The notes under the pieces are model-generated. The model did not search any database. It worked only from the letters and a program-made list of their open reading frames with translations, and was not told where the DNA came from. Of a stretch of 64,000 nt of DNA, positions 33,194-35,962 are shown piece after piece. Source of the stretch: an uncultured Haliea sp. (GTDB lineage: Bacteria > Pseudomonadota > Gammaproteobacteria > Pseudomonadales > Halieaceae); the NCBI GenBank assembly GCA_913061145.1, contig CAJXUQ010000002.1, forward strand, positions 186,001 through 250,000, given 5' to 3'. Numbering within the stretch: the stretch's first letter is position 1; the number at the start of each line of letters is the position of its first letter. Position numbers and translations under genes: made by a program.

Positions 33194-34201
33194 ATGAAGT
33201 GGTTTTCAGTTTCTTCGCGTGCCGTGTTCGCGGCCTGCGTTCTCGCCCTGCTTGCCGAGGGCAGCCTCGCTGTGTCCGAGGGTGCGGCGAGCGGTTTTTA
33301 TCCGCTCCCGGCGCCAGACGATCATCTCGTCGGTGGCCTGGGGACGACGACGGCGAGCGAAGAGGATACCCTCGTGCTGATCGGTCGGCGTCATCGTACC
33401 GGTTACGGCGCTATCCGCGCTGCCAATCCCGGCGTTGATGCCTGGCTGCCCGGAGAAGGGACGCAGGTGTTGCTGCCGACCTGGCATATCCTGCCGGAAG
33501 CGCCGCGCAAAGGGATTGTCATCAACACAGCGGAAATGCGCCTGTATCACTACGAGGGTGCCAGCGCGGATCGTCCCGCGCGCGTGGGCGTCTACGCGAT
33601 CAGCATTGGCCGCAGCGGGCGTGAAACGCCGCTGGCGACTGCCCGGGTGACGCGCAAGGCTGAGAATCCCACCTGGTACCCCACGGAATCGATTCGCAAG
33701 GACCGAGCAGCGCGGGGCACGCCGGTGCCTGCCGTGGTGCCGCCGGGGCCGAATAATCCGCTGGGTACGCGGGCCCTCTACCTGAACCTGCCTGCCTATC
33801 TCATTCACGGTACCAACCGCGAACTGGGCATCGGCATGCCGGTTACTGCGGGCTGTGTTCGCATGTACCCCGAGGATGTCGAATACCTTTACGAGCAGGT
33901 GCCTGTGGGCAGTCAGGTGGAAATTGTCTATCAGCCGGTGAAGGCTGGCTGGATGGGCGACACACTGTATGTAGAGTCCCACAACCCGCTGGGTGATCTG
34001 GAGATTACGGTGGACGAGCGCGTACAGCAATTGCGGGCCGCAATCGCGCGGACGCTGGGTGAGCGCAGGGATTTTACGGTTGACTGGAGCAAGGTGCGCA
34101 GCGCTGCTGAAGCGTCTACGGGTTTGCCGGTGCCGGTGGGTCCAATCTGGCTGGAGCATCACAGGCCGGGGCAGGATGACAGCGGCGCTGTCGGGGAATA
34201 G
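33194..34201 (+). CDS. L,D-transpeptidase with LysM-like domain (ErfK/YbiS type)
   Basis: This periplasmic enzyme of the YkuD family forms 3-3 crosslinks or attaches Braun-type lipoprotein to peptidoglycan. From the ATG at 33194 it is 335 residues: a signal peptide (1-27), a LysM-like segment (LVLIGRRHRTGYGAIRAANP, then LLPTWHILP) and the catalytic domain with AYLIHGTNRELGIGMPVTAGC, where Cys221 is the nucleophile, followed by RMYPEDVEYLY. The signal peptide plus LysM architecture is that of the E. coli ErfK/YbiS/YcfS group, which anchors Lpp. The lipoprotein gene is next door. Confidence 0.9.
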   Translation: MKWFSVSSRAVFAACVLALLAEGSLAVSEGAASGFYPLPAPDDHLVGGLGTTTASEEDTLVLIGRRHRTGYGAIRAANPGVDAWLPGEGTQVLLPTWHILPEAPRKGIVINTAEMRLYHYEGASADRPARVGVYAISIGRSGRETPLATARVTRKAENPTWYPTESIRKDRAARGTPVPAVVPPGPNNPLGTRALYLNLPAYLIHGTNRELGIGMPVTAGCVRMYPEDVEYLYEQVPVGSQVEIVYQPVKAGWMGDTLYVESHNPLGDLEITVDERVQQLRAAIARTLGERRDFTVDWSKVRSAAEASTGLPVPVGPIWLEHHRPGQDDSGAVGE

Positions 34202-34220
34202 ATCGGTAGCTGGAATAAAA

Positions 34221-34249
34221 CGGCGGGGCCGAAGCCCCGCCGGGTTTTA
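34221..34249. terminator. Bidirectional intrinsic terminator
   Basis: CGGCGGGGC (34221-34229), a 4-base loop and GCCCCGCCG (34234-34242) form a perfect 9-bp GC stem. It is followed by GGTTTTA on the plus strand and by TTTTATT on the minus strand. On the minus strand the loop is UUCG, a very stable tetraloop. It separates the convergent L,D-transpeptidase and lipoprotein genes. Confidence 0.9.
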
Positions 34250-34258
34250 CAAAACCGC

Positions 34259-34519
34259 TTACTTCTGCATTGAGGTTTTGAACGCGCGGTCGATTTTGCT
34301 GTTGGCTTCGTCGGCGCTGCGCTTGGCTTCTTCAGCGATGCGCTTGGCGTCAGAGGCAGTGCGCTCTGCACCGGCAGCAGATTGCTTGGCTTCGTCAGCT
34401 GAGCGCTGAGCGGCTTCCGCGATGCTGCGAACTTCGTCCAGTTGTGAAGTGCTGGCGCAGCCGGTGGCCAGTGCCGCGAAGGCGGCGATTGAAACAGCCT
34501 TGATAAGCGTAGATTTCAT
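34259..34519 (-). CDS. Lpp/OprI-like outer-membrane lipoprotein
   Basis: The 86-residue precursor has a lipoprotein signal peptide with lipobox LATGC (Cys21), then a continuous alanine-rich heptad coiled coil (about 26-78) like E. coli Lpp and Pseudomonas OprI. It ends in lysine (SMQK), the residue that L,D-transpeptidases join to diaminopimelate. The start at 34519 has AGGAG upstream; the longer frame is rejected. It tethers the outer membrane to the wall. It is flanked by three L,D-transpeptidase genes and ends at a strong terminator, as expected for an abundant protein. Confidence 0.92.
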   Translation of the reverse strand: MKSTLIKAVSIAAFAALATGCASTSQLDEVRSIAEAAQRSADEAKQSAAGAERTASDAKRIAEEAKRSADEANSKIDRAFKTSMQK

Positions 34520-34656
34520 GATAAAACTCCTTGAGCAGGGTTGGCCTGTCAGATCTAGGAAGCCACAAAGTGGCGAAACGTGCAAACTTCGAACTCCCGT
34601 CTGGGGCCCTTGGTTCGAACGCGCGTAAAATATCACTCTAGGAGCATGGTAAACCA

Positions 34657-35151
34657 GTGAGCATAAGAGCGTTATTGGCGTTTTGTGCATTTTTCCTGAA
34701 TTTTTTGTTGCCTTCACCCGTTTTGGCCTTCAATCCGCCGGTCGACCAGGTGGTTGTGGTCAAATCGGAGCGTACGTTATATCTCAAGTCGAGCGGGGTG
34801 GTGGTGCGCCATTACCCGGTCGCGCTGGGTCCGGTGCCCTGGGGGCACAAGGAGCGCGAAGGGGATGAGCGCACCCCGGAAGGGCGCTACATCCTCGATT
34901 ACAAAAATGCGCAGAGCCGCTTCTACAAATCGATTCGGGTGTCTTATCCGAATCGGCGCGACAGGCAGCGGGCCCAGGCCATGGGGGTGGATCCCGGCGG
35001 CAATATCATGATTCATGGCCAACCTGAAACGCCGCAGCCGGGCGCGGAGCTGTTTAACTGGACCGACGGCTGTATCGCGGTCAGTAATGAGCACATGGAT
35101 GAAATCTGGCAGCTGGTGACGGTCGGGACGCCTATCGAAATCCGGCCCTGA
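34657..35151 (+). CDS. Small secreted L,D-transpeptidase (YkuD family)
   Basis: The 164-residue protein has a signal peptide (about 1-24), then a minimal YkuD domain. This includes VVVKSERTLYL, the ALGPVPWGHKEREGDERTPEG substrate-loop typical of the YafK-like group, IMIHGQP, and the nucleophile Cys139 in NWTDGCIAVSNEHMDEI. The start is GTG 34657 with GGAG 12 bases upstream. YafK-like enzymes can release Lpp from peptidoglycan, opposing ErfK-type ligation, so it may counterbalance its neighbour. It is divergent from the lipoprotein gene. Confidence 0.9.
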   Translation: MSIRALLAFCAFFLNFLLPSPVLAFNPPVDQVVVVKSERTLYLKSSGVVVRHYPVALGPVPWGHKEREGDERTPEGRYILDYKNAQSRFYKSIRVSYPNRRDRQRAQAMGVDPGGNIMIHGQPETPQPGAELFNWTDGCIAVSNEHMDEIWQLVTVGTPIEIRP

Positions 35152-35266
35152 CCACCCGAGATAGCGGTAGGCAGCGCGGCGTCGCGACCCATCGGCCCTG
35201 ACTGGCAGGCTAGGCAGTGGTGAAGCAATGAGGTAAGCTGGCACCTCGTTTCCCTGAGATCACAAC

Positions 35267-35962
35267 ATGTCCGGTCGTGCCAGCATTTTTTTCGTTATTC
35301 TGGCGGCTTGGTGTCTGGGTATCTCATTGCCGGCTGCGGCTGGCGGTGGCACAGACCTGGTTCGCGCATTGACCGCGGCGGCACCGAACCTCGACCGCAC
35401 GGTACTGCGACGGGCGGTGTCGGCAATGAATTGCGCCCTGGACCGGGGTTTGGAGCGCGCCGAGCGGCTCGCCATTATCGATTTCTCTCTCCCGTCCAGC
35501 GAACAGCGGTTGTGGATTTTTGATCTTTCCCGACGCGAATTGCTGCTCAATGAACTGGTCGCCCACGGGCAGGGTTCCGGCCAGAACCTGGCCTCACAGT
35601 TCTCCAATGTATCGGGCAGCCATCAGTCGAGTATCGGCCTGTTTCGCACCAGCGAGAGCTACCGTGGCCGCCACGGTTACTCACTGCGGATGGATGGTCT
35701 GGAGGCCGGCATCAACGATCTCGCCCGGGAGCGGGCCATCGTGATCCACGGTGCCGATTATGTTGATCCACAGTGGATAGATCGCCAGGGACGCATCGGG
35801 CGCAGCCAGGGGTGCCCGGCCGTGCGCCCGGAAGTGGCCAGCACGGTCGTCGATACCCTGAAAGACGGACAATTCCTGTTCTCCTGGTATCCGGATCCGG
35901 ACTGGCTGGCCAACTCGGATTTTCTCAATTGCCAGGCGGGCACGCTGGCCCGACTGGACTAG
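35267..35962 (+). CDS. Murein L,D-transpeptidase catalytic-domain protein (YkuD_2 type)
   Basis: The 231-residue protein has a signal peptide (1-25), then a domain with IIDFSLPSSEQRLWIFDL, VAHGQGSG, IGLFRTSESYRGRHGYSLR, IVIHGADY and RIGRSQGCPAVRP with Cys183. This matches the YkuD_2 branch (family of murein L,D-transpeptidase catalytic domain proteins). No membrane segment follows the signal. Its role in wall crosslinking versus carboxypeptidase activity is not settled for this branch. Confidence 0.88.
   Translation: MSGRASIFFVILAAWCLGISLPAAAGGGTDLVRALTAAAPNLDRTVLRRAVSAMNCALDRGLERAERLAIIDFSLPSSEQRLWIFDLSRRELLLNELVAHGQGSGQNLASQFSNVSGSHQSSIGLFRTSESYRGRHGYSLRMDGLEAGINDLARERAIVIHGADYVDPQWIDRQGRIGRSQGCPAVRPEVASTVVDTLKDGQFLFSWYPDPDWLANSDFLNCQAGTLARLD

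Follow-up and report, generated by a model that had tools for sequence, protein, structure and literature searches.

The closest described systems for tying the outer membrane covalently to the cell wall are those of Escherichia coli and Pseudomonas aeruginosa. The first comprises the lysine-ended lipoprotein Lpp together with LdtA, LdtB, LdtC, LdtE and DpaA (PMC8263019, PMC10653827); lpp and ldtE stand tail-to-tail, 63 bp apart, and dpaA lies far from lpp, next to yafJ and yafQ. The survey of Winkle et al. (PMC8263019) covered DpaA and PF04728 lipoproteins only, and the passages available from it mention neither OprI nor PF11839. In P. aeruginosa, anchoring, release and cross-linking have been assigned to three enzymes: LdtPae2 is the only enzyme anchoring the lipoprotein OprI, and a YafK-like enzyme, LdtPae3, carries the motif SXGChA (PMC10434034). 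Gene neighbourhood is not discussed in the passages found of that report, where the locus tags of LdtPae2 and LdtPae3 (PA14_27180 and PA14_15840) are far apart. Here we describe a locus from an uncultured Haliea sp. of the Halieaceae, located in a 64,000-nucleotide stretch (positions 186,001 to 250,000 of contig CAJXUQ010000002.1, hereafter the window), in which the gene of an OprI/Lpp-type lipoprotein lies between those of a putative ligase, R, and a putative amidase, A, followed by a YkuD_2 protein, K2. We put at roughly 0.65 the probability that this locus encodes a reversible outer-membrane tether. Its gene content and motifs, the lysine terminus of the lipoprotein, the conserved linkage and the co-occurrence of the genes are established here; from sequence we infer the reactions, their direction and the substrate of A.

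The lipoprotein scores 59.6 bits against the NCBIfam model NF040598 (Lpp/OprI; cut-off 43) and 50.6 bits against PF11839 (cut-off 23.1), and no other protein of the genome matches PF11839; E. coli Lpp, in contrast, belongs to PF04728. Its translation has a lipobox, LATGC, with alanine at position -3, where leucine is usual, and ends in TSMQK. We propose that it is a peptidoglycan tether, attached through the C-terminal lysine.

R matches PF03734 (72.7 bits) and has a signal peptide-like N-terminus. Its motif TAGCVR conforms to (S/T)XGCh(R), with the arginine of amide-forming enzymes; cysteine and arginine are both invariant across 23 aligned rows (alignment A4). The LysM-like domain that the original prediction had given to this enzyme could not be recovered, as no Pfam LysM match was obtained up to E = 1. 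R is 37% identical to E. coli LdtE in an end-to-end alignment, and its score against the LdtE equivalog NF047955 (204.8 bits) is under the cut-off of 480; the case for a ligase-like working rests on LdtPae2. By sequence and position, R is a relative of that enzyme: it is 39, 41 and 40% identical to three enzymes adjoining oprI in a family (f21) that we take, from its OprI features, to be the Pseudomonadaceae. In all 12 loci of this family, oprI and the R gene lie tail-to-tail, as in the window. These loci differ from ours in that none of the 12 has an A gene within 5 kb of oprI, A matches being found elsewhere in the genome; nor was a YkuD_2 gene found in the 12 loci. Homology, residues and gene order together make R most likely the lipoprotein-peptidoglycan ligase.

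A matches PF03734 with 82.8 bits and carries the motif TDGCIA. An assignment as a transpeptidase is unlikely given that this motif has no arginine. DpaA also lacks the arginine, and most DpaA-like proteins carry alanine or asparagine at this position (PMC8263019); among 92 aligned A proteins the residue two positions after the cysteine is alanine in 88 and glycine in four. Four of the 14 A-type rows of f21 (L134, L135, L137 and L139) have TDGCIG in place of TDGCIA, a change at this same position. The best sequence match of A in the PDB is E. coli DpaA (8ikr, E 1.4e-8), Pgp2 following at E 1.2e-4. DpaA residues Lys83, Met133, Cys143 and Ala145 all have equivalents in A, and Tyr109 is replaced by phenylalanine. 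L,D-carboxypeptidases have a tryptophan where DpaA has Met133 (PMC10653827); the equivalent of Csd6 Trp158, which belongs to the D-Ala pocket, is methionine in A, and no tryptophan occurs at this column in the 92 aligned proteins. Homology, these residues and gene order make A most likely an amidase that frees the lipoprotein.

In the mechanism that we propose, the lipidated cysteine of the OprI-type lipoprotein would hold it in the outer membrane, with a coiled coil spanning to the peptidoglycan. The R cysteine would be acylated with a tetrapeptide stem, and the tripeptide passed on to the side-chain amine of the C-terminal lysine; A would hydrolyse the amide bond between meso-diaminopimelic acid and lysine, freeing the lipoprotein. 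The amount of attached lipoprotein would then be set by the balance between the activities of R and A. K2 is given no step. The original prediction, that ligation and release are encoded together, is thus plausible, considering the transpeptidase arginine of R and its kinship with LdtPae2 on one side and the DpaA hallmarks of A on the other. Its description of the enzymes as three L,D-transpeptidases needs correction: the set is probably made up of a ligase, a hydrolase and an enzyme with no assigned reaction, so that two of the three are probably not transpeptidases, A being a likely hydrolase and K2 also lacking the arginine.

We surveyed the locus in 61 genomes of the family Halieaceae, in 293 genomes of the order and in 114 genomes of the class. 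Within the family, PF11839 matches occur in 20 genomes, and all 20 proteins end in lysine. All 20 loci have an A gene within 5 kb of the lipoprotein gene, and 19 have an R gene there, which is always convergent; at the twentieth locus (G029) the lipoprotein gene is 115 bp from a contig end, and an R-like match is found at the end of another contig. None of the 41 lipoprotein-less genomes has an R-type enzyme, as judged by position and frame length, and two of them (G034 and G039) have A. As a side observation, no PF03734 match was obtained in 36 of the 61 genomes, which seem to be without YkuD-type L,D-transpeptidases.

PF11839 matches are found in 65 of the 293 order genomes (70 rows). Lipoproteins of relatives were read from the Pfam match onward as far as the stop codon; 60 rows were read, the remaining ten being long frames, second matches or a second frame piece. 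Six genomes (G194, G198, G243, G247, G272 and G290) were counted as lipoprotein-less by frame length, unread, and one (G083) after reading. A C-terminal lysine is present in 59 of the 60 loci; the remaining one is a false positive with no YkuD genes nearby. Within 5 kb of the lipoprotein gene, 58 of these loci have R (convergent in 55) and 35 have A, the latter distributed over 10 families and two amidase subfamilies. The A gene precedes the lipoprotein gene on the same strand in 21 loci and divergently in three; it follows the lipoprotein gene on the opposite strand in 10 loci and on the same strand in one. In families f4, f9, f14, f21 and f23, R is beside the lipoprotein gene and A is not. 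The lipoproteins of f9 and f4 (L090, L091, L093, L094 and L096-L099) end in CCRK, a cysteine pair before arginine and lysine that could permit disulfide-linked tethers.

R is present in 58 of 58 lipoprotein-bearing genomes of the order sample, and A in 57 of 58 as against 22 of the 235 others, A being counted at 100 bits or more (79 of 88 genomes), a cut chosen after viewing the list and dropping nine genomes with weaker matches. Fisher values for these counts take no account of relatedness and are given no weight here. Seven genomes have R and no PF11839 match. Six of them encode a lysine-ended lipoprotein convergent with R that the profile had missed, namely G069 (L122:3429-3623, PF11839 only E 0.13) and five f35 genomes (L146-L150); the last, G150, has an oprI-like gene interrupted by N in its assembly. 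With these readings taken into account, R and a lysine-ended lipoprotein coincide in 65 of the 293 genomes, G150 included and the six unread long frames counted as non-lipoproteins, and neither occurs alone in any genome. G069 also has a second small coiled-coil lipoprotein (L122 3741-3941) between the lysine-ended one and R; it ends in DG and has no terminal lysine.

R was found at E 1e-60 in 51 genomes of the class sample. We examined 30 of these loci, the window's own included: a lysine-ended lipoprotein lies within 1 kb in 23 (convergent in 22) and A within about 1.5 kb in eight; two of the seven loci without a lipoprotein end with the contig. The cluster recurs across the order and beyond; the idea that it is unusually compact is not supported, and that of an unusual arrangement is rejected on the three samples. 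The components are known from E. coli and Pseudomonas; in the literature searched, which had most subscription journals outside its scope, we found no account of a cluster that links ligase, lipoprotein and amidase, and neither the conserved linkage nor its use to find tether lipoproteins was found in print.

A tree of the 92 A proteins and E. coli DpaA contains a clade of 24 proteins with support 0.998 (subfamily II). Each of the 24 has an insertion (alignment A1) and is linked to the lipoprotein gene. The subfamily of the window's A holds the other 68, of which 27 are linked to the lipoprotein and 41 are labelled free, where free means not fetched through a PF11839 match (L121, L122 and L124 lie near R or a lipoprotein); here, the equivalent of Lys83 is present in 68 of 68 and that of Met133 in 59. 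Both subfamilies adjoin the lipoprotein gene within the one family. We take the two subfamilies beside one gene to have been recruited separately, or one to have replaced the other, in favour of a requirement for such an enzyme next to the lipoprotein; alternatively, the linkage may be ancestral and have been lost on some branches.

Several observations weigh against the reading of R and A as ligase and amidase of this tether. A scores only 45.7 bits against the DpaA equivalog NF040599, over residues 34-155 and far under the cut-off of 365, and lacks the C-terminal extension of E. coli DpaA. Subfamily II has no equivalent of Lys83. In Pseudomonas, release of OprI was assigned to LdtPae3 only tentatively, and its deletion altered no muropeptide (PMC10434034). 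A structure model of A (predicted local distance difference test, pLDDT, 86) has the YkuD fold, with alignment Z scores of 15.8 for Bd1075, 15.2 for YkuD, 14.9 for Csd6, 14.6 for Pgp2 and 11.6 for DpaA; by structure alone, the modelled A is equally near L,D-carboxypeptidases, transpeptidases and DpaA. Finally, among 80 named loci of the best relatives of A, judged within the stretch around A in the genome collection, 54 have neither R nor a lysine-ended lipoprotein, and these include Shewanella and deltaproteobacteria; the lipoprotein is present in the other 26, 25 of which have R. R was likewise not seen in 17 of 20 loci of a second set of A-type genes. These two counts rule out A-type proteins as dedicated to OprI. 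The subfamily of A is thus a tool of general use, set here next to the tether, and A may act on other substrates as well.

Some of these observations also favour the strongest alternative, namely that R anchors the lipoprotein and A acts as an L,D-carboxypeptidase or edits peptidoglycan more generally. A might then trim tetrapeptides to tripeptides and limit the donor substrate of R. We consider this unlikely, even if Bd1075, Csd6 and Pgp2 outrank DpaA structurally and A-like genes are common away from the tether: the residue at the Csd6 Trp158 position is methionine, as in DpaA (PMC10653827), DpaA is the best PDB sequence match, and a carboxypeptidase role would leave unexplained why, in 10 families, A accompanies the lipoprotein gene. 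Sequence favours DpaA as the counterpart of A, and fold by itself is not decisive.

R raises a similar question. In E. coli, the gene tail-to-tail with lpp, in the same position as R, is ldtE, whose product forms 3-3 cross-links and not Lpp bonds (PMC8263019, PMC12729407); position alone is therefore no proof of ligation. Given this, and the identity between R and LdtE, one could suppose that R is a 3-3 cross-linker and that the lipoprotein is attached by another enzyme, for instance an LdtD-like one encoded elsewhere in the genome, or not attached at all. This we find distinctly improbable, as R is present in 65 of 65 genomes with a lysine-ended lipoprotein and in none of the 228 others, a pairing that cross-linking would not need, and an enzyme of the same type, LdtPae2, anchors OprI (PMC10434034). 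That the grouping is an inherited, functionally uncoupled neighbourhood of paralogues is the least credible option: three close YkuD-fold genes could be old duplicates, and close relatives do inherit gene order, but the three enzymes are from different subfamilies, the linkage outlasts changes of orientation, amidase subfamily and flanking genes, and lipoprotein-less genomes have no R. We thus return to the tether with its ligase and amidase: the locus is real, and the argument from sequence for joint ligation and release is well-founded.

K2 matches PF13645 with 221.5 bits (cut-off 27) and has the motif SQGCPA. Its gene is on the same strand as A, 115 bp downstream. YkuD_2 proteins occur in nine of the 61 family genomes, all with the lipoprotein, near its gene in six and elsewhere in three, which makes K2 an optional companion. 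Attempts to assign it a function were given up, with a poor model (pLDDT 55) and no PDB sequence match at E 0.1. We found one studied YkuD_2 member, Lpg1697 of Legionella pneumophila (PMC10117105), which is likewise a small PF13645 protein (225 amino acids) with a signal peptide; in the passages available, it differs in that no lipoprotein link is shown, its deletion caused no detectable peptidoglycan change and its reaction is not known.

The features of the locus are listed in Table 1.

Table 1. Coordinates of the features of the proposed tether locus in the window
Feature	Position	Strand	Description
R	33194..34201	+	335 aa; LdtE/LdtPae2-type L,D-transpeptidase; proposed lipoprotein-peptidoglycan ligase
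Intrinsic-terminator-like hairpin	34221..34242	-	Where the lipoprotein gene and R meet tail-to-tail
OprI/Lpp-type alanine-zipper lipoprotein	34259..34519	-	86 aa; proposed tether
Divergent intergenic region, lipoprotein gene/A	34520..34656	.	Contains an inverted repeat
A	34657..35151	+	164 aa, GTG start; DpaA/YafK-like; proposed lipoprotein-releasing amidase
K2 (YkuD_2 protein)	35267..35962	+	231 aa; PF13645

All four genes first listed between positions 33194 and 35962, from the start of R to the end of K2, are present; that list was correct in its genes and gave no strand. The lipoprotein gene is tail-to-tail with R and head-to-head with A. The four-gene locus stands between fadAB on one side and, on the other, a gene that we take to be putA-like. 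Profile search detects four YkuD matches in this 3.52-Mb genome, three of them at the locus. The grouping exceeds chance, because these three and the sole PF11839 match fall together and because the arrangement recurs in relatives with different flanking genes: fadA and fadB are beside the cluster in no other family and putA in one f29 locus, while R is there in 15 families.

The terminator-like hairpin has nine G-C pairs followed by a T-rich tail, with a predicted RNA folding energy of -21.1 kcal/mol (z -4.1). The divergent region ahead of the lipoprotein gene holds an inverted repeat (GCCAC-TTT-GTGGC, 34562-34574), a candidate operator or leader hairpin; its CCAC...GTGG core is kept in six of seven aligned Haliea/Kineobactrum sequences (alignment A5). 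A regulatory hairpin of the leader as a whole was rejected, its fold being no better than shuffles (z -0.27).

In two Halieaceae relatives, a further enzyme that we take to be LdtD-like (SSGCVR, frame 559-759 amino acids) is found inside the cluster (L033 6345-8621 in G017 and L040 5998-7674 in G010), so that up to four YkuD-fold enzymes surround one lipoprotein. The window's genome has a comparable gene at G000:C7:67808.

It is an open question how Gram-negative bacteria control the covalent link that ties the outer membrane to the cell wall, as is the role of DpaA-like enzymes in species thought to be Lpp-less. The locus, which packs a single OprI-type lipoprotein, a likely ligase and a likely amidase into 2 kb, would represent a minimal on/off tethering system. 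Searching for a lysine-ended lipoprotein convergent with an R-type enzyme has already exposed lipoproteins that the PF11839 search overlooked. We may further hypothesize, with the odds about even, that Gammaproteobacteria carry the Braun-type tether as a portable module, whose ligase, lipoprotein and amidase persist or vanish as a unit and for which two amidase subfamilies were recruited separately. If so, a convergent R gene would be a better marker of tether lipoproteins than Pfam, and part of the distribution of DpaA without Lpp would reflect lipoproteins invisible to a PF04728 survey.

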